DNA from: Comamonadaceae bacterium
GTDB taxonomy: Bacteria > Pseudomonadota > Gammaproteobacteria > Burkholderiales > Burkholderiaceae_C
Reading direction: 5' to 3'
Length of the DNA: 64,000 bases
Assembly (NCBI GenBank): GCA_947452785.1
Contig: CANGDZ010000004.1
Span: 1 to 64,000 of the forward strand
Below the pieces are notes generated by a model, which worked only from the letters and a program-made list of their open reading frames with translations, ran no database searches and was not told the DNA's origin. Of this stretch, positions 43,389 through 62,462 are shown piece by piece. The position numbers and the translations under genes were made by a program. Every line of letters begins with the position of its first letter. Positions within the stretch are counted from its first letter, which is position 1.

Positions 43389-43400
43389 TGCGTAGGCGGC

Positions 43401-44759
43401 TCAACGCTGCGGCATGTCTTTGACCGAGTAACCCAGACTGATGGTGGCGTCGCCTGGAATTGCGGGCATGCTGGCGTTCCAGGCTTCCCACCTTTCGCGC
43501 ATCGCCTGCAGTTGCGTGGGCTGGCGCCCGCCCAGGTTGGCGCGTTCCCGCGCATCAGCCGGAATGTTGAACAGGTAGTCGTTGCCATCCACCCGCAGGT
43601 ATTTGTAGTCACCCAGGCGCAGGGCACGTTGGCCTCGGTGGTTCATGCGCCAGTGCATGGGCCGCGCAAAGTGGTGGGATGGGTCGCGCAGCACCTCGCA
43701 CAGCGAGATGCCGTCCAGCGGGTAGTCGGGGTCGGGCGTGGCGCCGCCCAGGATCATCATCGTGGCCGACCAGTCCATGGTCATGCAGTGCTGGTGGCTG
43801 ACGCCGCCGGGCGCGATGCCCGCCGGCCAGTGGGCAATCCAAGGCACGCGAATGCCGCCTTCGGTCAAATCCATCTTGCCGCCCACCAAAGGCCAGTTGT
43901 CACTGAAGCGCTCGCCGCCGTTGTCGCTGGTAAAGACGATCAGCGTGTTGTCCAGTTGCCCGGTTTTCTTCAGCGCATCAATGACCCACCCAATGCCTTC
44001 GTCCATGTGGTGGATCATGCGCTGGTAGGTGTGGATGTTGCCGCCGTGCAGGTGAAACAGGTTGTCTTTGACCTCTTGCGCCAGTGCATGGTCTTCGCGC
44101 GTTTCCCAAGGCCAGTGCGGCGCGGTGTAGTGCAGGCTTAAAAAGAAGGGATCGGCTGCGCGCTCGCCTTGCGCCATTCGCTCGACAAAGTCGACCGCAT
44201 TTCGGGAAATCAGATCGGTCAAATACCCCTCGTGCGGCTGCTCTTCTTCGCCCACCCACAGATCGTGCACACCGCTGGAGGCGCAGTGGCTGAAGTAGTC
44301 CACGCCCCCGGCCATGGGGCCAAAAAATTCGTCATAACCCGAACGCAGCGGGCCGAAAGTGGGCGGGTAACCCAGGTGCCATTTGCCGATCAAGGCCGTG
44401 CGGTAACCCACGGCTTGGAGCTGCGAGGGCAGGGTGGGGTGCGAAGTCGGCAAGCCCAAGGTGGTGCTGTGCCGGGCTTTGCTGTTGATGGGCTCTTCGG
44501 CCGCGCCGCGCAGGCGGTACTGGTAGCGCGCGGTCATCAAGGCAAAGCGCGTGGGCGAGCAGACCGGCGAATTGGCATAACCGTCGGTGAACTTCAGGCC
44601 CTTGGCCGCCAGCTGATCGATCACCGGCGAGACAGGGCCGAACAGGGCATCGCGCCCGCCGTAGCATCCCAGGTCGGCAAAACCCAGGTCGTCGGCGACG
44701 ATGAAGATGATATTGGGGCGTGGTGAGGAGGACGTATTGAGGGGGGTCATGGGGTTCAC
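43401..44759 (-). CDS. Sulfatase (arylsulfatase-like, Cys-type)
   Basis: NIIFIVADDLGFADLGCYG, CSPTRFALMTAR (CxPxR formylglycine motif), GKWHLG, FTSDNGG; no signal peptide. Confidence 0.92.
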   Translation of the reverse strand: MNPMTPLNTSSSPRPNIIFIVADDLGFADLGCYGGRDALFGPVSPVIDQLAAKGLKFTDGYANSPVCSPTRFALMTARYQYRLRGAAEEPINSKARHSTTLGLPTSHPTLPSQLQAVGYRTALIGKWHLGYPPTFGPLRSGYDEFFGPMAGGVDYFSHCASSGVHDLWVGEEEQPHEGYLTDLISRNAVDFVERMAQGERAADPFFLSLHYTAPHWPWETREDHALAQEVKDNLFHLHGGNIHTYQRMIHHMDEGIGWVIDALKKTGQLDNTLIVFTSDNGGERFSDNWPLVGGKMDLTEGGIRVPWIAHWPAGIAPGGVSHQHCMTMDWSATMMILGGATPDPDYPLDGISLCEVLRDPSHHFARPMHWRMNHRGQRALRLGDYKYLRVDGNDYLFNIPADARERANLGGRQPTQLQAMRERWEAWNASMPAIPGDATISLGYSVKDMPQR

Positions 44760-45727
44760 TCGACTTTCATGCCGGTCGACTGGATGGTGCGGGCATAGCG
44801 CTGCGCCAAATCGCTCAAGCGTTTAGCGGCTTCTGTGCCAGTCAGGCCTTCGTAAAACAAATCCATGCTGGCCAATTGCGCTTGGGTTTCTGGACGCTTC
44901 AGGGCTTCGGTAAAGGCTTTTTGCAATACCTGCACCACAGGCTCGGGCGTGGCTGCAGGCACCATGGCCACGTACAGCACTTCCAATTCCAATTCTTTCA
45001 GACCCAACTCGCTCACGGTGGGGACCTCCGGCGCTGAGCGTGAACGCTGGCGACTGGTCACCGCCAAGGGCGTGATCTTGCCCGCTTTGACATGCGGCAG
45101 CATGCCGGGCGTGGCCAAGACGCCGGCGTCCACCTCGCCCGACAGCACGGCCAAGACGGCGGGCGTGTTGCCTTTGTAGGGCACGTGTTGAATTTGGATG
45201 CCCGCCGCGTCCATGAAGATTTCTGCAGCCAAGTGGCCTGGGCTGCCGCTGCCGCCACTGCTGAAGTTCAGGCCCTTGCTTTTGCCTTGGGCGATCAGGT
45301 CTTTCATGCTTTTGAAGCCCGTGCCCGGGTTCGCGCCCACCAACAGACCTGAAGAGACCATCACCATGATGGGCTTGAAGTCGCTGGGCTTGAAAGGCAT
45401 GCCTTTGTAGATGTAAGGGTTGACCGTGAACGCGGTGTCAATGCCAAACAGCACGGTGTAGCCATCGGCCGGGCTTTTGGCCACCAGATCGGCGCCCATA
45501 TTGCCACCGGCACCCGCTTTGTTTTCGGTGATCACCGGTTGCTTGAAGGCGGTGGTGATCGCTTCGCCCACGGTGCGCGCCAGAAAGTCGGACGGCCCGC
45601 CAGGGGGAAAGTTGTTGACGAAGCGAATGGTTTTGCTCGGGTAGGTTTGCGCGAGCACGGCGGGTGCGCTCACGGTCAAGCACAGGGCAAGAGAAAAATA
45701 TGAAAGAGTGCGTCGCGGCAGGTTCAT
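44756..45727 (-). CDS. Tripartite tricarboxylate transporter (TTT) substrate-binding protein, Bug/TctC family
   Basis: Signal peptide ...SAPAVLAQ; YPSKTIRFVNNFPPGGPSDFLAR; ATGA-type overlap with sulfatase. Confidence 0.93.
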   Translation of the reverse strand: MNLPRRTLSYFSLALCLTVSAPAVLAQTYPSKTIRFVNNFPPGGPSDFLARTVGEAITTAFKQPVITENKAGAGGNMGADLVAKSPADGYTVLFGIDTAFTVNPYIYKGMPFKPSDFKPIMVMVSSGLLVGANPGTGFKSMKDLIAQGKSKGLNFSSGGSGSPGHLAAEIFMDAAGIQIQHVPYKGNTPAVLAVLSGEVDAGVLATPGMLPHVKAGKITPLAVTSRQRSRSAPEVPTVSELGLKELELEVLYVAMVPAATPEPVVQVLQKAFTEALKRPETQAQLASMDLFYEGLTGTEAAKRLSDLAQRYARTIQSTGMKVE

Positions 45728-45746
45728 GGTGGTGCTGGGTGTCGCT

Positions 45747-46727
45747 TCAGTCAAGTTGCACGCCGGTGGCTTTGATGGGTTTTTCCCAGCGAGCCAGATC
45801 GGCTTTTTGCGCGGCGGCCAAATCAGCGGAGTTGGAGCCAATGGGCTCGTAGCCGAGCTTGATCAGTTTGTCTTTCAAAGCCGGATCGCGCACGGCTTTC
45901 ATCATGGCTTTTTCCAGGCGGTTGAGTGGCTCGCCCTTGAGGCCGGCGGGGCCGTACATGGCAAACCAGGCCGTGGCTTCCATGTTCACGCCAGATTCTT
46001 TGAGGGTCGGGACTTCAGGCACTTGCGGGTCGCGCTGCGGGCCGGTCACGGCGATGATGCGCACCTTTTTGTTGTGGTGCAGCTCTGCGGTTTCAGACAC
46101 CACATCGAACTTGTAGCCAATGTGGCCGCCCAGCAGCGCGTTGTTGGCCGGAGCGCCACCTTGAAACGGCACATGGTTCAAACTGACGCCAGCCGATTGC
46201 TCCATCAACACCCCCATGAAGTGCGGCAGCGTGCCCGAACCTGGCGTGCCGTAGCTGGCGTTGGCTGGATCGGTTTTGGCTTTGGCCAACATGTCGGCCA
46301 CGGTCTTCACATTCGTGGACGGGCCTGAGACCAAGCCGAATTGAAAGCGCGCGATTTGTGAGACGGGGGTGAAGTCCTTCACTGCGTCGTAGTCGAGCTT
46401 TTTATAAACGTGAGGGAACAACACCATCGGGCCACTGGGCAGCACGATCACGGTTTGACCGTCGGGCTTGGCCGCTTTCACAGCGTTCAGCGCAATGCGT
46501 CCACCAGCGCCCGGTTTGTTGTCGATGATGATGGTGGAAAAGTCGTCGCGAATGGCCTCGGCAATCAAACGCGCCAACACATCGGCCGAGCCGCCGGGTG
46601 CAAAACCGACCAAGATTTTGAGAGACGGTTTTTCTTGTGCTTGTACCGCGGGTACTGCGGCGCACAGTATGGCTGCCCAGCCCATCAGTTGCAGGGTCCG
46701 GCGTGTCATGGCGTGTGTGAAATTCAT
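45747..46727 (-). CDS. TTT substrate-binding protein, Bug/TctC family
   Basis: Signal peptide ...AAVPAVQAQ; LKILVGFAPGGSADVLARLIAE. Confidence 0.93.
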   Translation of the reverse strand: MNFTHAMTRRTLQLMGWAAILCAAVPAVQAQEKPSLKILVGFAPGGSADVLARLIAEAIRDDFSTIIIDNKPGAGGRIALNAVKAAKPDGQTVIVLPSGPMVLFPHVYKKLDYDAVKDFTPVSQIARFQFGLVSGPSTNVKTVADMLAKAKTDPANASYGTPGSGTLPHFMGVLMEQSAGVSLNHVPFQGGAPANNALLGGHIGYKFDVVSETAELHHNKKVRIIAVTGPQRDPQVPEVPTLKESGVNMEATAWFAMYGPAGLKGEPLNRLEKAMMKAVRDPALKDKLIKLGYEPIGSNSADLAAAQKADLARWEKPIKATGVQLD

Positions 46728-48197: not shown

Positions 48198-48455
48198 ATG
48201 GCAATACATCAAAAATCAACCCCCAAGCCGACCGCACGCGTCGGATGGAATAATCGTTCGCAGACGGTCACGATGCCGCTCGAATATCGTTTTCCCGAGT
48301 CTGTGCGCGAGGTTTATATCCGACGAGAAGGAGAAAGCGTGGTCTTAACCCCACGTCCGACCGATTGGTCGGGCTTTTTCGCTTCTGGCTTGAAGGTCTC
48401 TGACGACTTCATGGCAGAAAGCGAGCGCATGCCTATTCAGGAGCGAACATTTTGA
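48198..48455 (+). CDS. vapB: Type II antitoxin, VapB/AbrB-like
   Basis: NRSQTVTMPLEYRFPESVREVYIRREGESVVLTPRPTDWSGFF; overlaps PIN toxin. Confidence 0.88.
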   Translation: MAIHQKSTPKPTARVGWNNRSQTVTMPLEYRFPESVREVYIRREGESVVLTPRPTDWSGFFASGLKVSDDFMAESERMPIQERTF

Positions 48456-48868
48456 AGGATCAGCTGTTCATGCTGGACACCGATGCCTGCATCTTCCTCA
48501 TGCGAGGGGCGTCCCAGAGGCTGGAGGCTAAGGTGCAGTCGGTGCCTCTTGCGCAACAGGTCATGTCGGCAGTGACGTTTGCTGAGCTGACCTATGGCGT
48601 GCAGGCCTCTGCTACCGCCAAGCGCAAACAGAACCAGGCGATACTTGATAGTTTGGCCTTGCACCTGGCTGTGCTGTGCTGGCCTCAAGATGCGGCAAAG
48701 CATTACGCCGAAATTCGTGCCGACCTGAAGAAACGCGGCGCGCAACTGGGTGCGGCTGATCTCATGATTGCGGCGCATGCGCGGGCGATGGGGGCCATTA
48801 TCGTAACGAACAATGTGAAGGACTTCGGGCGAGTGAAGGGCCTGGAAGTCGAGAACTGGACTAAGTAG
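48452..48868 (+). CDS. vapC: PIN-domain toxin VapC
   Basis: MLDTDACIFLMRG...VTFAELTYGV...LGAADLMIAAHARAMGAIIVTNNVKDFGRVKGLEVENW. Confidence 0.93.
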   Translation: MKDQLFMLDTDACIFLMRGASQRLEAKVQSVPLAQQVMSAVTFAELTYGVQASATAKRKQNQAILDSLALHLAVLCWPQDAAKHYAEIRADLKKRGAQLGAADLMIAAHARAMGAIIVTNNVKDFGRVKGLEVENWTK

Positions 48869-49117: not shown

Positions 49118-50056
49118 TTAGCCTGTTGCAAGCTTGGACACTCCAATCGGGACGCGCAGTGAAGTCGATGCGACGGTCCGCTGCACCACATCCGCAAGTA
49201 AGCGCGCCGCAGGCGATGGCTCTCTTCCAGACGCGAATATCAATCCCAGTTTTCTTTGGACGTTCGGGTTTTGAAGGGGTATCACCGCAACTGCGCCATG
49301 AGCCGGATCTGGACAGAGCAGTGAAGGCAGAACCGCGATGCCCAACCCCGCTTCGACCAAGCCCAAAAGTGTCAAAACTTGCGTGGTTTCGTGAACCACG
49401 TTGAGTTGAATGGACTTGGCTTCAAACGCACGGTCCAACGTGTCGCGAATTCCAGAACCCCGCCGGAGTAAAACCATCTCGTATTTTGCGAGATCTGCAC
49501 CAGTGACCTTTTTACGACTGGCCAAGGGATGGTCCACACGACACACCACTTGAAACGCATCATCCATCAGTGGAATCGACAGGCCTAATTTGATGGTGGA
49601 ATCCTCGCTGACGATGGCCACGTCGCATTCTGCTTTGTCGATTTTTTGCATGATCCCACGCATGTTGTCATCAAGAAAAATCACATCAATACCAGGGTAT
49701 CGGACTTTCATTTCGGCCAGTACAGGCGGCAACAGTCGATATACAGCGGAAGATAGACAGGCAATGGAAACCCTACCACGTCCCGAAGAAGCAAATTCTC
49801 TAAGCGCTGCAATCGAATAATCCAAACCCTCCAACAACCTTTCGGCATCTGCCAAAAATGCCGATCCTGCCTCACTGATTCTGACGGTACGGGTTGTTCT
49901 GTCCAACAACTTGACGCCAATTAAAGATTCCAACTGCGTTACCGCTTGACTGGTTGCGGGCTCGCTCAAGTGAAGCGCATTGGCCGCATTGCGAAAACTG
50001 CCGCGGCGTGCAATCTCCACAAAAATTCGCAGGTGCTTGAGGTTGGGATTGATCAT
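49118..50056 (-). CDS. LysR-family transcriptional regulator
   Basis: LKHLRIFVEIARRGSFRNAANALHLSEPATSQAVTQLESLIGVKLLDRTTRTVRISEAG. Confidence 0.95.
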   Translation of the reverse strand: MINPNLKHLRIFVEIARRGSFRNAANALHLSEPATSQAVTQLESLIGVKLLDRTTRTVRISEAGSAFLADAERLLEGLDYSIAALREFASSGRGRVSIACLSSAVYRLLPPVLAEMKVRYPGIDVIFLDDNMRGIMQKIDKAECDVAIVSEDSTIKLGLSIPLMDDAFQVVCRVDHPLASRKKVTGADLAKYEMVLLRRGSGIRDTLDRAFEAKSIQLNVVHETTQVLTLLGLVEAGLGIAVLPSLLCPDPAHGAVAVIPLQNPNVQRKLGLIFASGREPSPAARLLADVVQRTVASTSLRVPIGVSKLATG

Positions 50057-50225: not shown

Positions 50226-51239
50226 GTGCACCCAACAGGCCACAAGCCACAACCCCAAGTCAGGACCTGGCAATGGCCAAAGCATGTCTTTGGCGTTTTG
50301 GCGTTGACCGGATGTCTCGCTGTATGTGCTCAGCAACTTGAGTCCACAATTGAATTGGTTGTGCCAACTGCGGCTCAGGGATCGACCGACTTGCTGGCTC
50401 GCCTGGTGGCCAAAGGCCTGACGGAGAAGGGCTTGGGCCCGGTTCAAGTTCGCAACATGCCTGGACGCAGTGGCGCATTGGCCGCAGCCTATGTGGCAGC
50501 AGCACCCCCCAATGGGCGCACCTTGCTGGTGGCCACACCCAGCAGCCATGGAATTGCCTCTGCTTTAGAACGCAACTTGCCTTACGACCCCGTAGCGAGC
50601 TTCACGCCCATCGTTCGCTTTGCTTCGGCGCCCTACCTGTTGGTCGTCAAACCTGACCGTGCGGCCAATCAAGTTGCCTTCACAGAAGCGGCCAAACTGG
50701 CTTCTGGGGCATGGACCTATTCATCCACAGGGACAGGTGGGCCCCACCACCTTGTCGCAGAATTTTATTTCCGCAAAGCGGGCCTTTCCTTGCGCCACCG
50801 GCCTGCAGCAGGTGGCGCTGCCGCTTTGAACATGCTTCAGAGCGGTGAGGTTCAAGTCATGTTGCCCGCAGCGATTCTCGCTTTACCTCGAATCCAACAA
50901 GGGCAACTCAAGGCCTTGGCCGTCACTGGCCCCCAAAGGCTAGCGGCATTGCCCGATGTGCCTACGTTCAACGAAACCGGGGTTCAGATGGACATGGTTT
51001 CTTGGTATGGCCTGATGGCCCCCGCAGGGTTACCTGCCGAACAGGCTGCAAAATTAGCCAGCGGCGTTCTTTCTGTGCTGGCCGATCCGCTGATACAGAA
51101 GTCCTTGAGCGACATGGCGATCAATATCACAGCAGAACGAGGCGCCGACTTCGTGGCCACGATCAAGAGCGAGATGAGCAGTTGGAAATCACTGGTCAGT
51201 GACTTGGGTTTGCAAGTGGATCTCGGCAAAACAGATTGA
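50226..51239 (+). CDS. TTT substrate-binding protein, Bug/TctC family
   Basis: Hydrophobic leader VFGVLALTGCLAVCAQQ; ELVVPTAAQGSTDLLARLVAKGL. Confidence 0.88.
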   Translation: MHPTGHKPQPQVRTWQWPKHVFGVLALTGCLAVCAQQLESTIELVVPTAAQGSTDLLARLVAKGLTEKGLGPVQVRNMPGRSGALAAAYVAAAPPNGRTLLVATPSSHGIASALERNLPYDPVASFTPIVRFASAPYLLVVKPDRAANQVAFTEAAKLASGAWTYSSTGTGGPHHLVAEFYFRKAGLSLRHRPAAGGAAALNMLQSGEVQVMLPAAILALPRIQQGQLKALAVTGPQRLAALPDVPTFNETGVQMDMVSWYGLMAPAGLPAEQAAKLASGVLSVLADPLIQKSLSDMAINITAERGADFVATIKSEMSSWKSLVSDLGLQVDLGKTD

Positions 51240-51258
51240 CCCCACCGCGTTAAAGCAA

Positions 51259-52287
51259 ATGCAACACAACACTTTATGGAAAACCTGTCTGAAATGGGGC
51301 CGCCGCCGCAATGCGCCAACGCCTGTGCTTTGGCGGTTTGCCAAAGCTCTTGGACTAATCGCACTGACGTCCGCAGGTCTTTCACACGCTGCATTCCCCG
51401 AAAAAGCCATTCACATCGTGGTCCCATTTGTACCTGGTGGCGCGGCAGACAGTGCGGTGCGTTTAATGGCCCCCAGTTTGCAAAAACGCTTGGGCCAACC
51501 TGTTCTGATTGAAAACAAGGGGGGTGCCGGTGCGACGATCGGCACCGCTTACGTGGCCATCAGTCCCGCCGACGGATACACCCTGTTGATGGGCAGTGCC
51601 AGTAACGCCATTGGCAATGCCATTCAAAACAAAGTGCCCTATGTTTTTGAGCGTGACTTCACGCCGGTGATGTTGGTGGCGGACGTCCCTGGCGTGGTGG
51701 TGGTGCCAGCGAAATTACCAGTGAAAAACATGCAGGAGTTGATTGCCTATGCCAAAGCGCATGAAGGCCAGCTCAACTACGGATCCCCCGGCTACGGAAC
51801 CAGCGTTCACCTGGCTGGAGAGTTATTCCAAAGCATGACGGGTACCACCATGATGCATGCATCCTACAAAGGTGCTGCTCCCGCCATCACGGATTTGCTG
51901 GGCATGCGCCTGCAGCTTATGTTTCCGGCCTTGGCGGCGGTGCAAGCGCATATTCAAGCGGGAACTTTGCGCGCACTTGCCGTGACGACAAGAAAACGAA
52001 CTGCGCTAGCGCCAGATTTACCCACCGTCAGTGAGAGTGGACTTTCAGACTTTGAGGTCGGCGGCTGGATTGGGATTTTTGCACCCAAAGGCTTGCCCCC
52101 CGATGTACTGCAGACCTTGACACGCGCCATTGATGAAACGATGAAAGAAGACGAGTTACGCCGCAGCCTTTCCAAAATGGGCATTGAAGCCATGCCTGGA
52201 TCGGCGCAGGCTCTGCGCGAACGAGTCGAGTCCGATTCACGGCGCTGGGAAAAAGTCATTAAAAACAGAAAGATGGAATTGCAATGA
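51259..52287 (+). CDS. TTT substrate-binding protein, Bug/TctC family
   Basis: Leader ...ALGLIALTSAGLSHAA; FPEKAIHIVVPFVPGGAADSAVRLM. Confidence 0.92.
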   Translation: MQHNTLWKTCLKWGRRRNAPTPVLWRFAKALGLIALTSAGLSHAAFPEKAIHIVVPFVPGGAADSAVRLMAPSLQKRLGQPVLIENKGGAGATIGTAYVAISPADGYTLLMGSASNAIGNAIQNKVPYVFERDFTPVMLVADVPGVVVVPAKLPVKNMQELIAYAKAHEGQLNYGSPGYGTSVHLAGELFQSMTGTTMMHASYKGAAPAITDLLGMRLQLMFPALAAVQAHIQAGTLRALAVTTRKRTALAPDLPTVSESGLSDFEVGGWIGIFAPKGLPPDVLQTLTRAIDETMKEDELRRSLSKMGIEAMPGSAQALRERVESDSRRWEKVIKNRKMELQ

Positions 52288-53819
52288 ACGCAGATATCGC
52301 ACAGCAAAATCGCTCGCAAGCACAGACCCTGATTGATGCGCTCAGTACGCCCGTTTTGTCTCACTTTATCGATGGTCAAAACTACTTGCGCCAGGATGGT
52401 GCGACGATTTCCAATCGCTCTCCTGTCGACGACACAGAACTCAATCAAACGGCGCAGGGCAACGAAGCGGATGTGGCCACGGCCAGCCTGTCTTCAGAGA
52501 AAGCCTTTGAGAGCTGGCGGCAATGGCCCGCCGAAAAAAGGCGCGATGTGCTCCATGCCATTGCCGACCGCATTGAGGCTAACGCCGAGTCCATTGCGCT
52601 GATGGAAACCGCCGACACAGGCCAGCCCTTAAGATTTACCGGTAAAACGGCGACCCGTGGCGCTGAAAATTTTCGCTATTTTGCTGACCTGTGCACCCGG
52701 GCTGCGGATGGCCACAGCTACCCCACACCGACCCATCTGAACTACACGATGCGTGAGCCGATTGGCCCTGTCGGCGCCATCACGCCCTGGAACATGCCCT
52801 TCATGTTGGCCACTTGGAAAATCGCGCCCGCCTTGGCCGCTGGCTGTACCGTGGTTCACAAACCGGCCGAATGGAGTCCGCTGACCGCCACGTTGCTGGC
52901 CAAAATCGCTTTCGAGGCGGGCTTGCCTGCCGGTGTACTCAACACTGTTCAAGGCTTGGGCAATGAAGCCGGCAGCGCACTGACACAAGATCCTCGCATC
53001 AAAGCCATTGCCTTTGTCGGCGGAACACAAACGGGTTCGCGCATCATGGCGCAAGGTGCGCCCAGCCTGAAGCGCGTGCATTTTGAATTGGGCGGCAAAA
53101 GTCCCGTGGTGGTCTTTGACGATGCGGACCTTGACCGGGCCGTGGATGCCGTGGCCTTCATGATTTTCAGCCTCAACGGTCAGCGCTGCAATGCAGGCTC
53201 ACGCCTGCTGGTTCAACGCTCGATTCACGACCAATTTGTGGAGCGTCTGATTCAGCGTGCGCAAAAAATTTGCGTGGGAAACCCGTTCGATCCTGCAACA
53301 GAGGTGGGGCCGCTGATTCACAGCAAGCAGCTGACCAAAGTGAAAGAGCACTGCTTCAATGCCGTGCAAGCCGGCGCCACGATGCATTGCGGCGGCGTGA
53401 ATGCTTTGAGCGCTCATTTGCCAGCTGCTGGAAATTGGTTTGCCCCGGCCATCGTCTCTGGCGTGACGCCGGCTATGGATATCGTTCAACAAGAGGTTTT
53501 TGGACCTGTCCTTGCCGTTTTGCCTTTTGACGATGAAGCCCATGCGCTTGCGCTGGCCAACGACAGCCGATACGGCTTGTCTACCTATCTCTGGACGGGC
53601 AATGTAGGGCGTGCACACCGTTTGGCAAGGTCCTTTCAGTCCGGCATGGTCTGGGTCAACACCGAGATCGCACGCAATTTGTCGACGCCGTTTGGCGGCA
53701 TGAAAGACAGCGGCATCGGCCGTGATGGCGGTGACTGGAGTTTTGACTTTTACATGGAAACACGCAATGTCTGCATTGCGCTGGACGGTCACGCGATTCC
53801 GCAAATTGGCAAGCTTTGA
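52284..53819 (+). CDS. Aldehyde dehydrogenase, HpaE-like (5-carboxymethyl-2-hydroxymuconate semialdehyde dehydrogenase-like)
   Basis: FELGGKSPVVVFDDADLDRA, LNGQRCNAGSRLLVQ catalytic Cys; C-terminus GGMKDSGIGRDGGDWSFDFYMETRNV resembles HpaE. Confidence 0.88.
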   Translation: MNADIAQQNRSQAQTLIDALSTPVLSHFIDGQNYLRQDGATISNRSPVDDTELNQTAQGNEADVATASLSSEKAFESWRQWPAEKRRDVLHAIADRIEANAESIALMETADTGQPLRFTGKTATRGAENFRYFADLCTRAADGHSYPTPTHLNYTMREPIGPVGAITPWNMPFMLATWKIAPALAAGCTVVHKPAEWSPLTATLLAKIAFEAGLPAGVLNTVQGLGNEAGSALTQDPRIKAIAFVGGTQTGSRIMAQGAPSLKRVHFELGGKSPVVVFDDADLDRAVDAVAFMIFSLNGQRCNAGSRLLVQRSIHDQFVERLIQRAQKICVGNPFDPATEVGPLIHSKQLTKVKEHCFNAVQAGATMHCGGVNALSAHLPAAGNWFAPAIVSGVTPAMDIVQQEVFGPVLAVLPFDDEAHALALANDSRYGLSTYLWTGNVGRAHRLARSFQSGMVWVNTEIARNLSTPFGGMKDSGIGRDGGDWSFDFYMETRNVCIALDGHAIPQIGKL

Positions 53820-53855
53820 GCCTCGCCATAAATCGAAAATCCGCAAGGGAAACGA

Positions 53856-55391
53856 ATGTCGCAAAAACAAAGACCCAATATTCTGTTCATCACCACAGAT
53901 CAACAAAGGGCCGATTGCATTGGGTATGAAAACCCTGTGCTGCGCACGCCGCACCTGGATGCTTTGGCGCGTTCAGGCACACGTTTTTCAAATTGCATCA
54001 CCCCAAGCATCGTATGCCAACCTGCTCGCGCAGCCATCTTGACCGGCATGCTGCCTTTGACGAACGGCGTTTGGGATAACGGCGTGGACCTGAACCCGAG
54101 CATTGGCGCGCAAGGCATGGCGGCGCAATTGGCCCATAGCGGTTATGCCACGGCCTTTGTGGGCAAGGCTCACTTCTCTTCCAAAATCACTTTCCAAGCG
54201 ACAGGTACACCTGAGTGCAGAAAAAGTGCCCCCAGTTACCCGGATGACTGGGTGGGGCCGTACATGGGCTTTGACCATGTGGAATTGGCGGCTCTGGGTA
54301 AATTTCACCGTGCACGATTGCCTGCAGACGCGCCCACCATCCACCGTTTTGAGCATGCGTTGCTCAGCCACCCCAATGCCTTGGAGTTATGGCAAAACTC
54401 CACCACGCAGGGCAGTGGCGCCGCACAGACTTGGGACTCCTGCTTGCCCGAGGAATGGCACAGCAGCGCCTGGGTGGCTGATCGCACATTGGCGATTTTG
54501 GAAAAGCAAAAAGAGGCCGATCAACCATTCTTTGCCTGGGCTTCATTTCCCGATCCGCACCACCCATTTGATTGTCCTGCGCCTTGGAATGCCATGTACC
54601 AGCCCGCAGACATGCTGTTGCCCGAGCACAGAACCTTGGACTTGGAAAAAAGGCCCTGGTGGCACCGTGAAGCACTGGAAGGTTCGCCCAAAATCGCCGA
54701 CCCCGAACTGGCCAAGTTTCGCTCTGAAGGTTTTAAAGTTCCACCGCAGACGGATGAGCAACTGCGAGAGATGACGGCCAATTACTACGGCATGATCTCG
54801 CTGGTCGACCACCATGTGGGACGGATTTTGCAGGGCTTGGAACAAGCAGGTTTGGCCGAAAACACCTTGATTGTTTTCGCCAGTGACCACGGCGACATGC
54901 TCGGCGATCACGGGTTGTACCTCAAAGGGCCGATGTTTTATGAAGGGGTTCTTCGGGTTCCCCTGATCGTGGCAGGCCCAGGTGTTCCCGCTGGTCAATG
55001 CATCGACACACCGGTATCGACCATTGATTTGGCCGCCACTTTCTTAGAGAGTGCGGGTCTTCACAACCAGAGCGTTCAAAGCCGGTCGCTGCACCCCGTC
55101 ATGGCGGGCAAAGAAACACGTGAATGCGCTTGGAGCGAATGGCATGTGCATCCCGCGAGACTGGGCGTGGCGCTTGAATTACGCGCCGTCAGGACTGCGG
55201 CTTACAGCTACACCTTTGAATTTAGTTCGGGCAGCGGCGAGTTGTACGACCTGCAGCAAGATCCCGATCAAATGATCAATCTTTTTGCCGATAAGGAATG
55301 GAGCGATGTGCGCGCGCAAATGCATGCATTGCTGTTGGCGCGACCTGGCGCTATCCGCACAGACTTGGCCGAACCGGTCGGCATCGCATGA
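53856..55391 (+). CDS. Sulfatase / alkaline phosphatase superfamily (Cys-type)
   Basis: NILFITTDQQRADCIGYENP, VCQPARAAILTGMLP (CxPxR), FVGKAHF, FASDHGDMLGDHGLYLKG; no signal peptide. Confidence 0.9.
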   Translation: MSQKQRPNILFITTDQQRADCIGYENPVLRTPHLDALARSGTRFSNCITPSIVCQPARAAILTGMLPLTNGVWDNGVDLNPSIGAQGMAAQLAHSGYATAFVGKAHFSSKITFQATGTPECRKSAPSYPDDWVGPYMGFDHVELAALGKFHRARLPADAPTIHRFEHALLSHPNALELWQNSTTQGSGAAQTWDSCLPEEWHSSAWVADRTLAILEKQKEADQPFFAWASFPDPHHPFDCPAPWNAMYQPADMLLPEHRTLDLEKRPWWHREALEGSPKIADPELAKFRSEGFKVPPQTDEQLREMTANYYGMISLVDHHVGRILQGLEQAGLAENTLIVFASDHGDMLGDHGLYLKGPMFYEGVLRVPLIVAGPGVPAGQCIDTPVSTIDLAATFLESAGLHNQSVQSRSLHPVMAGKETRECAWSEWHVHPARLGVALELRAVRTAAYSYTFEFSSGSGELYDLQQDPDQMINLFADKEWSDVRAQMHALLLARPGAIRTDLAEPVGIA

Positions 55392-55957
55392 CCGCGCGCT
55401 CAGGCCCGGTTGTTCATCGCGCCAAGCGCTTTTTTCTGGTGCTGTTGTTGGCGATGACGCCTCTCGTGTCTCACGCCGAATGCGCCGCCATGCTGCCCGC
55501 TCTGGACCGACTCGAAGCCATGGTCCAAGCCGAAATGACCGCACGCGAGGCCCTGGTGACCATGCGCCGCAATGCACAAGACTGGAAAAACCTGTTGCTT
55601 CGGGGTAGTGATGCCCAAATGAGGCAAACCATGCAAGCCCGATTCGACAGCCAAGCCGCAAGCTATGCCATGCAGCTTGGGAGTCTGCGCAAACAACTGC
55701 AGGCACTGGGTGAGACCCCTCGTCGACTGGATATCTTGGACCAAGAGCAGATCCAACTGTTTGGCAAATACCGACAGGCACTGGCCACCCACGGCGTGAA
55801 TACGCTGGAGGCTGCTTTCCAAGCCGATCGTGAAGTTCAAGGGGCCGACGTCAAAACACTGCGCACCCTGGAGGAAGCGATTGAAGCGCTGGCCACGAAC
55901 AATCGTGGACAGTTTCAAACTGTGCGGCAGTTGCTGAAGACGTGCCCAGCTTCCTAA
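55388..55957 (+). CDS. Secreted helical protein resembling a chemoreceptor periplasmic sensor domain
   Basis: Signal peptide AKRFFLVLLLAMTPLVSHAE; RRNAQDWKNLLLRGSDAQMRQTMQARFDSQ resembles MCP ligand-binding-domain motif (xVQEWKNxLLRGxD...); no TM/HAMP/signalling domain. Confidence 0.65.
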   Translation: MTARSGPVVHRAKRFFLVLLLAMTPLVSHAECAAMLPALDRLEAMVQAEMTAREALVTMRRNAQDWKNLLLRGSDAQMRQTMQARFDSQAASYAMQLGSLRKQLQALGETPRRLDILDQEQIQLFGKYRQALATHGVNTLEAAFQADREVQGADVKTLRTLEEAIEALATNNRGQFQTVRQLLKTCPAS

Positions 55958-55985
55958 ACATCCATTCCACAAGAATAAGTCAGAC

Positions 55986-57725
55986 ATGAACCACCCCGCA
56001 GCACAAACAGGCGCCACGTTGTTGATTGATTCATTGGCTGCGCAAGGCGTTGACACGGTTTTTTGCGTTCCCGGTGAAAGCTATCTGGCGGCGATGGACG
56101 CTTTATACGACTACCGCGATCAAATTAAGCTGGTCGTATGCCGACATGAAGGTTCTGCCACGTTCATGGCGGAAGCGCATGCCAAAGCCACGGGACGTCC
56201 TGGCATTTGTTTTGTCACGCGCGCACCTGGCGCCACGCAAGCCTCTATCGGTTTGCATACGGCCCATCAAGACTCGACGCCGCTGATTCTTTTTGTGGGC
56301 CAAGTGGGGCTGGACTTCATGGGGCGCGAGGCCTTTCAGGAGGTGGATTACCGTCAGATGTTTCAGCCCGTGGCGAAATGGGTGGCTGAAATTGCCGATC
56401 CTGCCCGCGTGCCTGAGATGGTCAACCGCGCTTTTCATGAAGCTTTGTCTGGGCGCCGTGGCCCTGTGGTCCTGGCGCTGCCCGAAAACGTCCTGAGCGG
56501 TGCAGTTCCTGAAACGGTGCGAATTGCCAAACCGGCCAATCCACCCCAAGTCGTCCCCAGTGCCCACGACTTGAAGAAACTGCAGACCCTGCTTGAACAG
56601 GCACAACGACCCTTGGTGATTCTGGGCGGTAGCGGTTGGAACGCGAAAGCCGTAGAAGACATGGGCGCATTTTTGCGCCACGCGGGATTGCCCGTGATTT
56701 GCTCGTTTCGCAGGCAAGACCTCTTCGATAACAATGATGAGCAATACGTCGGCGTCTTGGGACTGGGGGCTGACCCCGCGTTGCAAGATGCGGTCAAAAA
56801 CTCTGACCTGCTCGTGTTGCTGGGCGCCCGCATGGGAGAAGTGCCCAGCTGCGGCTACACCCTGATCGACTCGCCGCAACCGCAACAACTGTTGGTGCAT
56901 TGCATGCCTTGCGCCAAGGAGCTCGGCCGCGTGTACCGGCCCGACTTGGCCATGCTGTCCACCATGCCCGAACTGGCGCAAGAACTGGCACAACTGCAAT
57001 TGCCACCGGATTTAAAAACCCGTTGGAAACCCTGGGTGCAGATCTTGCGCCAAGGCTTCGAATCTTTCACCACGCCCAAACTTTCGCCACACCATCCCGC
57101 ATCGACCGATCAAGACATGGTGGACATGGGCGCGATTTGGCAAATCTTAAGCAGAGATCTTCCTGATGACGTGATCATCACCAATGGGGCGGGTAATTAC
57201 ACCGCTTGGGCCCATCGCTTTTACCGCTACACATCCTTCGGCAGCCAACTGGCCCCCACGAGTGGCGCCATGGGGTACGGCTTACCTGCCGCCATCGGCG
57301 GTCAACTGGCTCACCCTCAGCGTCCTGTGCTGTGCCTGGCTGGCGATGGCTGTTTCATGATGAGCTCCCACGAAATGGCCACCGCGGTGAAATTGAAACT
57401 TCCCATCGTCACCGTGGTGTTTGATAACCAGATGTACGGCACGATTCGAATGCACCAAGAAAAGTGGTTCCCTGAAAGGGTCTACGGCACCGCCTTGGAC
57501 AACCCAGACTTTGTGGCGCTAGGCCGCGCCTACGGCGCCCATGCGCAAGCGGTTCACAGTGCTGAAGAGTTGATGGCGGCGATCTTGGTTGGATTTAAAG
57601 CAAACGGTCCCACCTTGCTGCATGTCCGCACGGACCCCGAACAGATCAGTCCCGGCGGGTCTATCACCTCGATTCGCGAAAAAGCAAAACCGACCACCAT
57701 GGCGCGCCAAGCGCTGGCCCCTTAA
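55986..57725 (+). CDS. Thiamine-pyrophosphate-dependent enzyme (acetolactate synthase-like)
   Basis: CRHEGSATFMAEAHAKATGRPG (catalytic Glu), GDGCFMMSSHEMATAVKLKLPIVTVVFDN (TPP motif). Confidence 0.92.
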   Translation: MNHPAAQTGATLLIDSLAAQGVDTVFCVPGESYLAAMDALYDYRDQIKLVVCRHEGSATFMAEAHAKATGRPGICFVTRAPGATQASIGLHTAHQDSTPLILFVGQVGLDFMGREAFQEVDYRQMFQPVAKWVAEIADPARVPEMVNRAFHEALSGRRGPVVLALPENVLSGAVPETVRIAKPANPPQVVPSAHDLKKLQTLLEQAQRPLVILGGSGWNAKAVEDMGAFLRHAGLPVICSFRRQDLFDNNDEQYVGVLGLGADPALQDAVKNSDLLVLLGARMGEVPSCGYTLIDSPQPQQLLVHCMPCAKELGRVYRPDLAMLSTMPELAQELAQLQLPPDLKTRWKPWVQILRQGFESFTTPKLSPHHPASTDQDMVDMGAIWQILSRDLPDDVIITNGAGNYTAWAHRFYRYTSFGSQLAPTSGAMGYGLPAAIGGQLAHPQRPVLCLAGDGCFMMSSHEMATAVKLKLPIVTVVFDNQMYGTIRMHQEKWFPERVYGTALDNPDFVALGRAYGAHAQAVHSAEELMAAILVGFKANGPTLLHVRTDPEQISPGGSITSIREKAKPTTMARQALAP

Positions 57726-57746
57726 ACCCTTTCAGAAAGACTGACT

Positions 57747-58670
57747 GTGTCCCCATCGACATCCTCATCCTCCGCAGAATCCAATTCTGACGCATCTGCA
57801 ATCACCATTGTGGTTCCTTTTCCACCAGGCGGCATTGACCTCATCTTGTCGCTTTTTATAGAGGGTCTGAGCCAGCGGTTGGGACGAGCTGTTCATTTGG
57901 TGAACCACCCGGGAGGAACTGGCGCCCACGGCACGCTCGAAGTTGCCAAGGCCAAACCCGATGGGCTCACGCTGTTGTTTGCTTCTCAAGGCCCGCTCGT
58001 TTACCAGCCACAACTCAATTCGGTTGGCTACAGCGCCCTGCATTCATTTGTCCCGGTCTGCCGCGTTACATCGACGCCCAGCGTCTTGATGGCATCGGGC
58101 AAGAGTGGTTTCAACAGCATGGCACAAGTCGTGGCTGCTGCCCAACATGCGCCCGGGTCCATTTCTTATTCAACACCGGGCGTCGGTGGCCTTCCACATA
58201 TTGGAATGGCTGCATTCGCTAAAGTCATGGGCGTAGAAATGACGCACAAGCCCATGGCCGGTGCCGCTGCCGCCATCAAGGCCCTGAAAGAGGGTGAAGC
58301 TGAACTGATTGCTGAGCAACTTCCGACCGCCATTGCGCTGGCCAATGAAGGCGCACGGATCATCGGCGTGTTTGCTCAGACTCGGCTGAGTCACTTGCCC
58401 GATGTTCCGACCTTGATCGAGCAAGGCTGCAATCTCTGCTTTCAATCGTGGAATGTGCTGATGGCGCCCGCCAACACACCCACTGCAACGTTGCAGCGCT
58501 TGAGCGAAGCCTGCTTGGCCGCCTTGGTGGATGCCACGCCCGCCATGAATCAACAAATGGGCATCGACCCGGCCTATCTCGGCTCTGCACAAACGGCCAC
58601 TTTCATTGCCGGCGAGCTTGATCGTGCCCATGAACTCGCGCGTCTGAGCGGACTGATCACTGGTAAGTAA
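57747..58670 (+). CDS. Bug/TctC-family protein lacking a recognisable signal peptide
   Basis: MSPSTSSSSAESNSDASAITIVVPFPPGGIDLILSLFIEGLSQRLG; in-frame upstream stop at 57723 leaves no room for a leader. Confidence 0.9.
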   Translation: MSPSTSSSSAESNSDASAITIVVPFPPGGIDLILSLFIEGLSQRLGRAVHLVNHPGGTGAHGTLEVAKAKPDGLTLLFASQGPLVYQPQLNSVGYSALHSFVPVCRVTSTPSVLMASGKSGFNSMAQVVAAAQHAPGSISYSTPGVGGLPHIGMAAFAKVMGVEMTHKPMAGAAAAIKALKEGEAELIAEQLPTAIALANEGARIIGVFAQTRLSHLPDVPTLIEQGCNLCFQSWNVLMAPANTPTATLQRLSEACLAALVDATPAMNQQMGIDPAYLGSAQTATFIAGELDRAHELARLSGLITGK

Positions 58671-58702
58671 GTTTAGAAATTTCAAAACCCATTGGAGACA
58701 TC

Positions 58703-59674
58703 GTGAACAAAAGAATCATGCTTTTAGGTTTAGCCGCAATCTCGTTGACTTGTCAGTGGGGCTCGACCGCACTCGCACAGGCTTTCCCCAGCAAACCCGT
58801 CACCTTGGTCGTTCCCTACCCCGCCGGTGGTGGCGCGGACATCATTGCCCGCATGCTGGCCGAGTCGATGAAATCCACTTTGGGTCAATCCGTGACGGTC
58901 ACCAACCGACCTGGAGGCCAGGGCACCATTGGCACCGCTGAAGTGCTGCGCATGCCGCCTGATGGCTACAACATCGTTTTAAGCGCTGCGGCCACCTTGA
59001 CGGTTCAGCCGCACCGTCAAGACCTGCCTTACAACACACCGGATGACTACGACCCGATCATCAAAGCATCCAATCTGCCCATGGTGTTGGCCGTGCTGTC
59101 CAACTCCAACCTCAAAAGCGCCAAGCAGGCCTTGGAATTTGCCCGCACCAACCCCGGCAAACTCCGCGTCGGCACCCCTGGCAATGGCTCCATTGGCCAT
59201 TTGATTGTGGCCAGCGTGAACACCAAAGCTAAAACCAAATTGGGGCATGTGCCCTATGCCAGTGGGGCTGAATCGATTCCCTCCATGTTGGGCGGGCACA
59301 TTGAGGCGGTGGTCGCTCACCCCTCGGAGTTACTTCCCCACGTCAAGGCCAAAACGGTCACCGTCTTGGCTGTTTTTGAAGAGCAACGCAATCCCAACTT
59401 CCCTGATGCTCCGACCTTGCGTGAACTTGGCTACGACGTTGCCATGGGGGTCTACTACCCCATCGTGGCGCCCAAGGGCATGCCTGCAGACATCAAAGCG
59501 AAACTGTTCAAGGCCGCAAAAGATGCCATGGAAAGCCCATCCTTTAGCGCACAGGCTAAAGAGCGTGGCTACAACTTAGAGATCAAAGATCCAGAAACAT
59601 TGCGCAAAGAGCTTTGGACTGCTTACCGTGAAAACGGGCAGTTGGTTACTGAATTGGGCATGGGGAAAAAATGA
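58703..59674 (+). CDS. TTT substrate-binding protein, Bug/TctC family
   Basis: Signal peptide ...STALAQA; FPSKPVTLVVPYPAGGGADIIARMLAE. Confidence 0.94.
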   Translation: MNKRIMLLGLAAISLTCQWGSTALAQAFPSKPVTLVVPYPAGGGADIIARMLAESMKSTLGQSVTVTNRPGGQGTIGTAEVLRMPPDGYNIVLSAAATLTVQPHRQDLPYNTPDDYDPIIKASNLPMVLAVLSNSNLKSAKQALEFARTNPGKLRVGTPGNGSIGHLIVASVNTKAKTKLGHVPYASGAESIPSMLGGHIEAVVAHPSELLPHVKAKTVTVLAVFEEQRNPNFPDAPTLRELGYDVAMGVYYPIVAPKGMPADIKAKLFKAAKDAMESPSFSAQAKERGYNLEIKDPETLRKELWTAYRENGQLVTELGMGKK

Positions 59675-60132
59675 CCGCTCGCATATCGGGGTTGCTTTGC
59701 GCCTTGTTCTTTGTCCTTTTAGGCGGGGGCCAGATGTACCTGGCGCCACGCTTGGCCGGGGGGCTTGGATTGAATGCGGCCGAACCGGGGCCGGGCTTGT
59801 TTCCCATGATGACCGGTGCGCTGATGTTCTTTTCGGCTGCGGCACTTTTGATTCAATTGCTTCAAGAAAGCCAGATCGAAGAAGCCGTAGAGTCGCGCTT
59901 CCCGCGAGACATCATTTTTTTGGTCGCAGCCATTGCGTTGTACATATTTCTCCTCCCGCGGGCAGGATTTTTTGTCGCTGCATTTTTATTGTTGCTGGGT
60001 GCATTGACTATTTTTAATATGCCCAGCATTTGGCGTCGCCTGCTCACAGCGGCATTGGCCACTGTAGTTTCCTATGGGGTATTTACGCTCGGTCTGAGCG
60101 TCAACATGCCCAATCCAACTTGGTTCAATTGA
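59671..60132 (+). CDS. tctB: TTT small membrane subunit, TctB family
   Basis: ~150 aa, 4 TM, between Bug and TctA. Confidence 0.88.
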   Translation: MTARISGLLCALFFVLLGGGQMYLAPRLAGGLGLNAAEPGPGLFPMMTGALMFFSAAALLIQLLQESQIEEAVESRFPRDIIFLVAAIALYIFLLPRAGFFVAAFLLLLGALTIFNMPSIWRRLLTAALATVVSYGVFTLGLSVNMPNPTWFN

Positions 60133-60133
60133 T

Positions 60134-61642
60134 ATGAATGCCTTTGAAGGACTGGCCTTTGGTTTTTCCATTGCGCTACAAGGTCAAAATTTACTCGCCT
60201 GTTTTGTGGGGGTGCTGATTGGAACGGTCGTTGGGGTTCTGCCAGGCATCGGTCCCATTGGGGCCATGGCGCTCTTGTTGCCCGTCACTTACAGCATGAC
60301 GCCCGCAGGCGCCTTGATCATGCTGGCAGGTATTTACTATGGCTCCATGTATGGGGGATCGACGACCTCGATCTTGCTCAAGGTGCCCGGTGAAGTCTCC
60401 TCGGTCATCACCACCATTGACGGTTATGAAATGGCACGCAAGGGCCGCGCTGGTGCTGCCCTGTTTGTCGCTGCGGTAGGCTCCTTTGTGGCCGGCTCCA
60501 TCGGCATCTTGGGTTTGGCCTTCTTGGCGCCCGTGCTGGCCTCATCGGCCCTGCGCTTTGGTCCTCCAGAGTTCTTTGCGCTGTGCATCCTTGGATTGTT
60601 GGTGCTCTCCCGAATCACGGGTTCTTCATTGGTCCGTGCCGCCGTCATGGTGGCCTTGGGCCTGGGCTTGAGCACCGTCGGCATGGAGCCGATGTCAGGC
60701 GTTTCACGCTTTACCTTTGGCTCTCTTGAATTGGCACAGGGTCTGGAACTGGTACCGATTGCGATTGGTCTTTTTGGTATCGCAGAACTGTTGTCCTCTG
60801 CACATGACAAATTGATTTCCGTAAAGCCACTGAAAGTCAAATTAAAAGAGTTGCTTCCCACAAAGCTGGAGTGGAATCGCGCGCAATGGCCCATCGTTCG
60901 GGGCTCCGTACTGGGATTTTTGTTTGGACTCATTCCAGGACCCACGGCCATCATCGCAACTTTCAGCTCGTATGCACTAGAAAGAAAATTGTCCAAGCAT
61001 CCCGAAGAGTTTGGACATGGGGCGATTGAAGGTGTTGCAGGGCCCGAGAGTGCCAACAACGGAGCGGCGCAAGGTGCGTTCATTCCATTATTGGCTTTGG
61101 GAATTCCCTTTGCACCGGCCTCAGCCATGTTGCTCACTGCGCTCTTGATTCATGGCGCCAAAACAGGCCCTATGCTGATGGTCGAAAGCCCGGAAATATT
61201 TTGGGGCGTCACCTCCAGCATGTACGTTGGCAACATCATGCTGTTGTTGCTGAACCTGCCCATGATTGGTGTTTTCGTCGCATTGCTGCGACTGCCCATG
61301 TATTTAATATCCAGCTTAGTGGCCTTGTTGTGCGTGGTCGGGACCTACGCCATCTCCAATAGCATTTTGGACTTGTGGGTGTTACTTCTCAGTGGCGTTG
61401 CCGGCTATGTTTTACGACAACTGAAATTTGAACCGGTCATTCTGTTGATGGCGCTGGCACTGGGCCCCATCCTAGAGCGCTCCTTTTTGCAGTCGCTCTA
61501 CCTCACCCAAGGCAACTTGGAGGAGATCATGGCCCGGCCCATTTCGGGGGCCATGCTGACGATCGCCCTGGTGGTCCTGATCTATCCTTTGATTCGAAAA
61601 TTGCCTACTCAGATTCAAAAACTCAGGGCACTCAAAGCCTAA
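60134..61642 (+). CDS. tctA: TTT large membrane subunit, TctA family
   Basis: GVLPGIGPIGAMALLLPVTYSMTPAGALIMLAGIYYGSMYGGSTTSILLKVPGE. Confidence 0.96.
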   Translation: MNAFEGLAFGFSIALQGQNLLACFVGVLIGTVVGVLPGIGPIGAMALLLPVTYSMTPAGALIMLAGIYYGSMYGGSTTSILLKVPGEVSSVITTIDGYEMARKGRAGAALFVAAVGSFVAGSIGILGLAFLAPVLASSALRFGPPEFFALCILGLLVLSRITGSSLVRAAVMVALGLGLSTVGMEPMSGVSRFTFGSLELAQGLELVPIAIGLFGIAELLSSAHDKLISVKPLKVKLKELLPTKLEWNRAQWPIVRGSVLGFLFGLIPGPTAIIATFSSYALERKLSKHPEEFGHGAIEGVAGPESANNGAAQGAFIPLLALGIPFAPASAMLLTALLIHGAKTGPMLMVESPEIFWGVTSSMYVGNIMLLLLNLPMIGVFVALLRLPMYLISSLVALLCVVGTYAISNSILDLWVLLLSGVAGYVLRQLKFEPVILLMALALGPILERSFLQSLYLTQGNLEEIMARPISGAMLTIALVVLIYPLIRKLPTQIQKLRALKA

Positions 61643-61658
61643 GGAAGCCTCACTGCAA

Positions 61659-62462
61659 ATGTTAAACCCATCCCTTATTCACGATCTGGCGCAACAACTT
61701 CAAACAGCACGCGCAACACAAACTCAACTGCGGCAGCTTTCCAAAGCTCACCCGCAGGCCACTTTGGCTTCGGCGTACGCCATCCAGGACGCTTGGCTGC
61801 AACTTGAACTGCAACAAGGCCGTTCAGTCAAGGGCCGCAAAATTGGACTGACCTCCAAGGCGCTTCAGCAAACCTTCAAGGCTGCGGAGCCCACGCATGC
61901 CTCCCTGATGGACGACATGTTTTTTACCGATGGCTCCGAATTGCCCATCCATCGGTTCATTGCCCCACGCATTGAATCCGAACTTGCCTTTGTGCTCCAC
62001 AAACCATTGAAGGGACCTCACATCACATTGTTTGATGCTTTGGACGCTATCGCTTACGTCACTCCAGCCATTGAAATCATTGATTCCAGGATGGAATTGA
62101 TTGACCCGCAAACGAAAGGTACGCGCAACGTCATCGATCAGGTGGCAGACTTTGCGGGTTGTGCAGGCATTGTGGTCGGTGGCCGACCCATGCGTCCCGA
62201 CGCATTCGACATCAGCCGTGTGGGCGCCATTGTGTATAAAAATGGATCCATTGAAGATACAGGCGTGTCCGCCGCCGTCATGAATCACCCTGTGAATGCA
62301 GTGGTTTGGCTGGCGAACAAACTGACTGAAAGCGGCGAACATCTGCAAGCCGGTGAGTTGATCTTGGCTGGGGCCTTCACTCGACCAATGCCTGCGGGTT
62401 CAGGTGATAGCTTTCACATTGATTTCGGGGCCTTGGGGTGCATCGGATTTAAATGGGCTTAA
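61659..62462 (+). CDS. 2-oxo-4-enoate hydratase, HpaH-like (2-oxo-hept-4-ene-1,7-dioate hydratase-like)
   Basis: GRKIGLTSKALQQTF...LMDDMFFTDGSELPIHRFIAPRIESELAFVL...IDSRMELIDPQTKGTRNVIDQVADFAGCAGIVVGGRP. Confidence 0.9.
   Translation: MLNPSLIHDLAQQLQTARATQTQLRQLSKAHPQATLASAYAIQDAWLQLELQQGRSVKGRKIGLTSKALQQTFKAAEPTHASLMDDMFFTDGSELPIHRFIAPRIESELAFVLHKPLKGPHITLFDALDAIAYVTPAIEIIDSRMELIDPQTKGTRNVIDQVADFAGCAGIVVGGRPMRPDAFDISRVGAIVYKNGSIEDTGVSAAVMNHPVNAVVWLANKLTESGEHLQAGELILAGAFTRPMPAGSGDSFHIDFGALGCIGFKWA

Follow-up and report, generated by a model that had tools for sequence, protein, structure and literature searches.

Periplasmic sensor domains are usually taken to be the inputs of the receptors to which they are fused, and the question raised by this locus is what such a domain might do when it is encoded by itself. 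The window analyzed here is a 64,000-nucleotide stretch of a Comamonadaceae genome, in which one gene (55388-55957) had been proposed, in a preliminary description, to encode a signal peptide followed by a helical domain resembling the periplasmic ligand-binding domain of methyl-accepting chemotaxis proteins (MCPs), with no second transmembrane segment (TM), HAMP or signalling domain; a ligand carrier, a co-sensor or a decoy were the roles suggested for it. We refer to its product as the sensor-domain protein.

The gene and its operon

The sensor-domain gene lies within a run of genes that all face the same direction (50226 to 62462, + strand), next to a divergent LysR-type gene that is the sole regulator gene seen beside the operon. 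The features are as follows:

49118-50056, -: divergent LysR-type regulator (PF03466 1e-49, PF00126 1e-19)
50226-52287, +: two TctC-type periplasmic solute-binding proteins (50226-51239 and 51199-52287; PF03401 2e-51 and 4e-76)
52284-53819, +: aldehyde dehydrogenase, HpaE type (5-carboxymethyl-2-hydroxymuconate semialdehyde dehydrogenase; TIGR02299, 709 bits, cut-off 638)
53856-55391, +: sulfatase with CxPxR active-site motif (PF00884 Pfam 2.8e-48)
55388-55957, +: predicted secreted stand-alone WKNxLLRG four-helix sensor-domain protein (ORF, 189 aa)
55388-55477, +: predicted signal peptide, residues 1-30, cleavage between SHA and EC (sequence form read by eye)
55577-55606, +: QDWKNLLLRG motif, the family signature, precursor residues 64-73, end of helix 1, as in MCPs
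55769-55849, +: YR (128-129) and D..V.G.D (147-154) signature, end of helix 3 to start of helix 4
55986-57725, +: thiamine-pyrophosphate (TPP) enzyme, acetolactate-synthase-like (PRK08199, 785 bits, cut-off 539)
57747-59674, +: two further TctC-type solute-binding proteins (57747-58670 and 58703-59674; PF03401 1e-42 and 5e-53)
59671-61642, +: TctB (59671-60132) and TctA (60134-61642) membrane subunits (PF07331 4e-19, PF01970 7e-148)
61659-62462, +: HpaH-type 2-oxo-hept-4-ene-1,7-dioate hydratase (TIGR02312, 354.6 bits, cut-off 351.5)

The HpaE- and HpaH-type enzymes both score above their NCBIfam cut-offs, which suggests a homoprotocatechuate-type aromatic pathway. The sulfatase has no signal peptide by eye. 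Elsewhere in the window, a second sulfatase cluster on the opposite strand (41673-46727, -) encodes a SulP-type sulfate permease with a STAS domain, a sulfatase and two TctC proteins, and is without a sensor-domain gene. A putative PIN-domain (VapC-like) toxin-type gene, recognized by eye, is also found near the operon (48452-48868, +).

The only ortholog of the sensor-domain protein that we found (80% identical) is encoded at the same position on a Comamonadaceae metagenome-assembled contig (L002; the same contig occurs in genome G470). The ATG of the sensor-domain gene overlaps the sulfatase stop by four bases (ATGA, 55388-55391). An alternative in-frame ATG upstream at 55298 would give 219 aa; however, the ortholog begins with the corresponding overlapping ATG (8001), and no start lies further upstream in its frame, which makes 55388 the probable start codon. 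The N-terminus reads RAKR-FFLVLLLAMTPLV-SHA followed by EC, with typical n-, h- and c-regions and an SHA-E site and without a lipobox, as judged by eye and by a hydropathy scan only. That scan (19 residues) places the hydrophobic segment at residues 15-33 of the query protein (P0001) and finds no further one past the predicted cleavage. P0001 lies over the scan threshold and the ortholog under it, so that predicted secretion rests on the signal-peptide form seen in both orthologs. Pfam and the hydropathy scan detected no second TM, HAMP or MCPsignal domain, in agreement with what had been proposed, and the downstream gene begins 28 bases past the sensor-domain gene, a gap too small for a HAMP or signalling sequence. 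The protein contains exactly two cysteines, which the ortholog retains; C32 and C186 lie at opposite ends of the mature bundle. A C32-C186 disulfide clamp that would replace the lost membrane anchors is not claimed: helix 1 is about 7 residues longer than helix 4, and the idea is weakened by cysteines at the aligned columns in the TMs of some MCPs.

Homology to MCP sensor domains and predicted fold

Searching with the single protein, we obtained matches at E 1e-11 to 1e-3 from 44 further genomes of the family. Almost all fell within frames of 500-700 aa, and those examined were MCPs with HAMP and/or MCPsignal domains, apart from one relative (L003) in which just a HAMP-like stretch was seen. 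An HMM built from 21 MCP domains only recovered the sensor-domain protein at E = 9e-17 and its ortholog at 1.6e-16, with the qualification that the 21 rows had been gathered by similarity to the sensor-domain protein and are not fully independent of it. The same HMM matched none of 2000 shuffled copies and no other of the window's 555 frames of at least 60 aa. A profile of six non-MCP relatives that are likewise without output domains scored the protein at 3e-15. Across the shared domain, the consensus reads FKTQVQEWKNVLLRGKD ... YRKG ... GDxAVxGMDREP, and in the alignment the Q, W, K, N, L, L, R and G of the QDWKNLLLRG motif are as in MCPs; YR, D147, V150, G152 and D154 are all retained as well. 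The QxWKNxLLRG, YR and D..V.G.D signatures are present in both orthologs. Overall, 16 of the 31 positions that are at least 85% conserved in the MCP domains are retained, including nearly all those of WKNxLLRG, YR and D..V.G.D. At precursor positions 59, 62, 121 and 155, the MCP rows invariably have F, Q, H and R, and the sensor-domain protein has other residues; the ligand may therefore differ or be lost. Taken together, the proposed resemblance is borne out, and the product of 55388-55957 is almost certainly, as judged from sequence, a homolog of the MCP WKNxLLRG four-helix sensor domain.

No family model in Pfam, NCBIfam or PHROGs fits the sensor-domain protein. It is unmatched by Pfam 4HB_MCP_1 (PF12729) and TarH (PF02203) at E up to 1, two models that score even its MCP relatives below cut-off, and PF03401 (TctC/Bug) likewise gives nothing within that limit. 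We attributed low-scoring hits in Pfam and the PDB, to APP_E2 and to designed proteins (E 0.03 or worse), to coiled-coil noise. To our knowledge, the WKNxLLRG domain was previously known only within MCPs; a search of the literature, whose coverage left out most subscription journals, found nothing on the WKNxLLRG motif or on a stand-alone chemoreceptor sensor domain.

AlphaFold, run on the mature chain with 24 sequences, predicted a four-helix arrangement with confidence (all-helical, pLDDT 92, pTM 0.84; helices at mature residues 5-42, 46-76, 82-105, 110-120 and 125-155). The best solved structures found with Foldseek were the ligand-binding domains of the chemoreceptors MCP2201 and Vc1313, followed lower down by PcaY_PP, Tar and Tsr, which speaks against an unrelated fold. 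Since helical bundles are common, the Foldseek E-values are weak (0.05 or worse), and the fold match supports the sequence result and is not proof alone. Sequence searches of the PDB found no relative, even via a profile, and a BFVD fold search returned generic helical proteins only. Residues shared with the receptors are found where helices 1 and 3 end and ahead of helix 4; read from the helix order and secondary structure of the model, they would meet at the membrane-distal apex.

Chemotaxis genes, selection and distribution

In the window's genome (98% complete), we found no MCPsignal and no CheW match, and identical searches were positive in 7 out of 14 control genomes. The second carrier genome (G470) likewise has no MCPsignal match. 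This absence is not a search failure, because other members of the genus (G088 and G407) do have MCPs. With no MCPsignal in either carrier genome, it is most unlikely that the sensor-domain protein serves a chemoreceptor of its own cell.

At the L002 locus, the sensor-domain gene overlaps the sulfatase stop by the identical four bases and is then followed by TctC, TctB and TctA genes; the aldehyde dehydrogenase and TPP genes are absent. The sulfatase ortholog there (L002/L050) is 93% identical. Compared with its ortholog, the sensor-domain gene has a dN/dS of 0.116 at a dS of about 0.9 (Nei-Gojobori, one pair), and eight other operon and regulator genes range from 0.039 to 0.171 (TctB 0.131, TctC1 0.171). 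The family motifs are the slowest-evolving parts of the gene, with values of 0.036 over residues 61-80 (the WKNxLLRG segment) and 0.029 over residues 117-160 (the YR/D..V.G.D segment) against 0.116 overall; the signal peptide gives 0.224. Neither copy contains a frameshift or stop. A low dN/dS that is lowest at the motifs is not the pattern expected of decay, which argues against a decayed MCP. The concern, raised at the outset, that the frame could be a truncated MCP pseudogene is thus answered by the intact frames and the low dN/dS, and the gene is intact and under selection, by a pairwise estimate from two sequences.

Within the genus, the sensor-domain gene occurs in 2 out of 90 genomes. 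Among 17 related sulfatase loci of the genus, mostly beside TctC genes, nothing similar was seen within about 1.5 kb (one of these loci, L056, ends just past the sulfatase). The sensor-domain gene is not a fixed part of sulfatase/TctC operons, and since the 17 related loci are without it, it is an addition to the operon of one lineage. The preliminary description had suggested co-occurrence with TPP and sulfatase genes, and this was confirmed in part: both known copies have the sulfatase next to them, but at L002 the TPP enzyme is missing, and the related sulfatase loci stand without the gene. At six of the related loci (L052, L053, L060, L062, L063 and L066, about 3066-4514), a different second sulfatase-like gene directly follows the sulfatase.

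Weak matches in the genus (E 0.002-1) fell in long frames or in short, low-scoring ones. Profile searches of 300 (order), 401 (family) and 369 (class) genomes, in which at most 8-10 candidates per genome were scored, gave matches almost wholly in long frames, and the short-frame matches that were examined had two TMs, were a frameshifted MCP (L068), or lay near contig ends or were unclassified (L069, L072 and L044). L068 was rejected as a stand-alone form, its MCPsignal domain lying in the next overlapping frame. The 191-aa frame of L069 (134-709) combines one N-terminal hydrophobic segment with the sensor domain, and TM2 is found in no frame; it lies downstream of a response-regulator-like gene, near the contig end, and is possibly a second case without TM2, or else an assembly or sequence error. 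The sole clear case of a predicted secreted single-domain form among these scored candidates is the present protein, which sits on a long branch in the tree. Viral contigs contained no relative, and among plasmids only two Pseudoalteromonas records matched, of which the one read is a 921-aa MCP.

The searches also uncovered forms without an output domain that are anchored in the membrane. In six genomes from six families, a gene encoding TM1, the WKNxLLRG domain and TM2 without HAMP or signalling domain is immediately followed, often with an overlap, by a gene of the PF02690 Na/Pi-cotransporter-like type (E 3e-30 to 7e-36). These two-gene modules (two-TM WKNxLLRG gene plus PF02690 gene) are located at:

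L042, 4729-7047
L045, 4740-7012
L046, 4308-6865
L070, 5549-7944
L071, 3114-5590
L074, 4530-7014

In the tree, the six two-TM proteins group together with modest support (68/96), apart from the sensor-domain protein, and one of their genomes (G730, 1.3 Mb) contains no MCP. The two-TM protein looks like a sensor domain acting on or with the transporter. Other arrangements were observed as well. L041 (7692-9133) encodes two such two-TM proteins in tandem, with no Na/Pi gene seen adjacent, and L043 (6277-6972) encodes one near TauE/SafE-type and LysR-type genes, again with no Na/Pi neighbour seen. A relative of 322 aa in L073 (5219-6187) carries the sensor domain between TM1 and TM2, together with a weak HAMP-like stretch, but has no signalling domain; some 0.5 kb downstream of its gene, in the same orientation, an NMT1-type ABC transporter binding protein is encoded. 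We tentatively raise the possibility, which we consider rather doubtful at present, that the WKNxLLRG domain serves more generally in ligand sensing, for transporters too, acting without an output domain alongside Na/Pi-cotransporter-like proteins and, free and secreted in the tripartite tricarboxylate transporter (TTT) operon of a host that lacks chemotaxis receptors, regulating or feeding transport directly.

Proposed function and comparison with known systems

We propose that the sensor-domain protein would be exported to the periplasm, where its conserved polar residues close to the bundle apex may bind a small (probably anionic) solute of the operon. It may act there jointly with the operon's TctCBA uptake system, either holding the substrate or handing it over, or reporting its presence to a membrane partner. 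We give an even chance to this accessory role, in which a soluble protein of the periplasm binds a ligand and assists the TctCBA uptake operon as carrier or co-sensor; the function is inferred from gene neighbours, with one ortholog. It is the simplest reading because those neighbours with a role in the envelope are uptake proteins, because the output-less form of the domain recurs beside transporters elsewhere, and because the TctC homologue BctC serves both uptake and signalling (PMC5812351). Consistent with this, the second genome keeps the sulfatase overlap and the flanking TctC genes, although genes for the aldehyde dehydrogenase and the TPP enzyme are missing from that locus. Against it stand the 17 related sulfatase loci, most with TctC genes, that are without the sensor-domain gene.

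The main rival to the TctCBA accessory role is that of a periplasmic co-sensor, in which the free domain would dock from the periplasmic side onto a membrane sensor, such as a histidine kinase, and switch that sensor upon ligand binding, much as the helical lipoprotein QseG provides accessory activation of the kinase QseE (PMC6075780, PMC12691602). Its ancestry as a sensor domain, as given by the MCP-only HMM, would suit such a role, and the Foldseek matches include, at rank 15, one chain from the QseG-QseE complex (9m08_C); however, this match does not surpass those to designed bundles, QseG is a lipoprotein whereas the sensor-domain protein has no lipobox, and the operon contains no gene for a kinase, receptor or other membrane sensor, its sole adjacent regulator being of the cytoplasmic LysR type. 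We therefore regard docking on a sensor kinase as unlikely. Improbable, too, is a chaperone-like or envelope-stress helical protein that binds no small ligand. The all-helical AlphaFold model would allow a periplasmic protein to take such a role, but the signature residues of the sensor family are retained and the gene lies among uptake genes; a chaperone for the sulfatase in particular is unlikely because the sulfatase, the gene-overlap neighbour, appears cytoplasmic.

We also considered that the protein could be a functionless remnant, that is, a chemoreceptor sensor domain left behind by gene loss or transfer and translated through its coupling to the sulfatase. The restriction of the gene to two genomes of the genus, its long branch in the tree and a host without chemotaxis receptors are what such a remnant would leave. 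Yet its dN/dS falls in the range of those of TctB and TctC1, constraint peaks at the family motifs in two copies without frameshift or stop, and there is no room for a HAMP or signalling sequence before the downstream gene. The remnant explanation is disfavoured by this selection pattern, and we hold it to be very improbable.

The operon narrows the candidate ligands to a few. That a host without a detectable chemotaxis receptor maintains a free copy of the domain under selection shows that the domain is useful on its own. The WKNxLLRG MCP domain family is widespread, and the sensor-domain protein would be a small, soluble, natural version of it, convenient for finding the ligands of the MCPs because their domains have no Pfam model and no solved structure of them was found.

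In comparison with known systems, the protein has in common with the WKNxLLRG MCPs of Comamonadaceae and other Gammaproteobacteria (in the GTDB sense) the FKTQVQEWKNVLLRGKD, YR and D..V.GMDR signatures and the predicted bundle, but where these receptors have TM1, TM2, HAMP and MCPsignal, it has a predicted signal peptide and nothing past the domain. The best structural match, the ligand-binding domain of MCP2201 from Comamonas testosteroni (5XUA, 6ITS, 7WRM), is a four-helix bundle that binds citrate or malate (PMC10735184); however, there is no sequence-level PDB match to it, and its mid-bundle pocket residues apparently differ from those conserved in the sensor-domain protein. The six two-TM WKNxLLRG proteins share the domain, the lack of HAMP and signalling domains and an adjacent transporter gene, yet unlike the sensor-domain protein they are anchored in the membrane at both ends, and their transporter is a different one. 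BctC and the other TctC proteins of TTT transporters are periplasmic and belong to a similar kind of operon, but have the PF03401 fold as opposed to an unrelated helical bundle. Stand-alone sCache_heme proteins are secreted lone sensor domains with a role unlike that of the receptor-fused form (PMC12889525); they provide a precedent for stand-alone secretion, but with a Cache fold, a c-type heme and an unrelated sequence. What is new here is the stand-alone, predicted secreted form of an already known MCP sensor domain.
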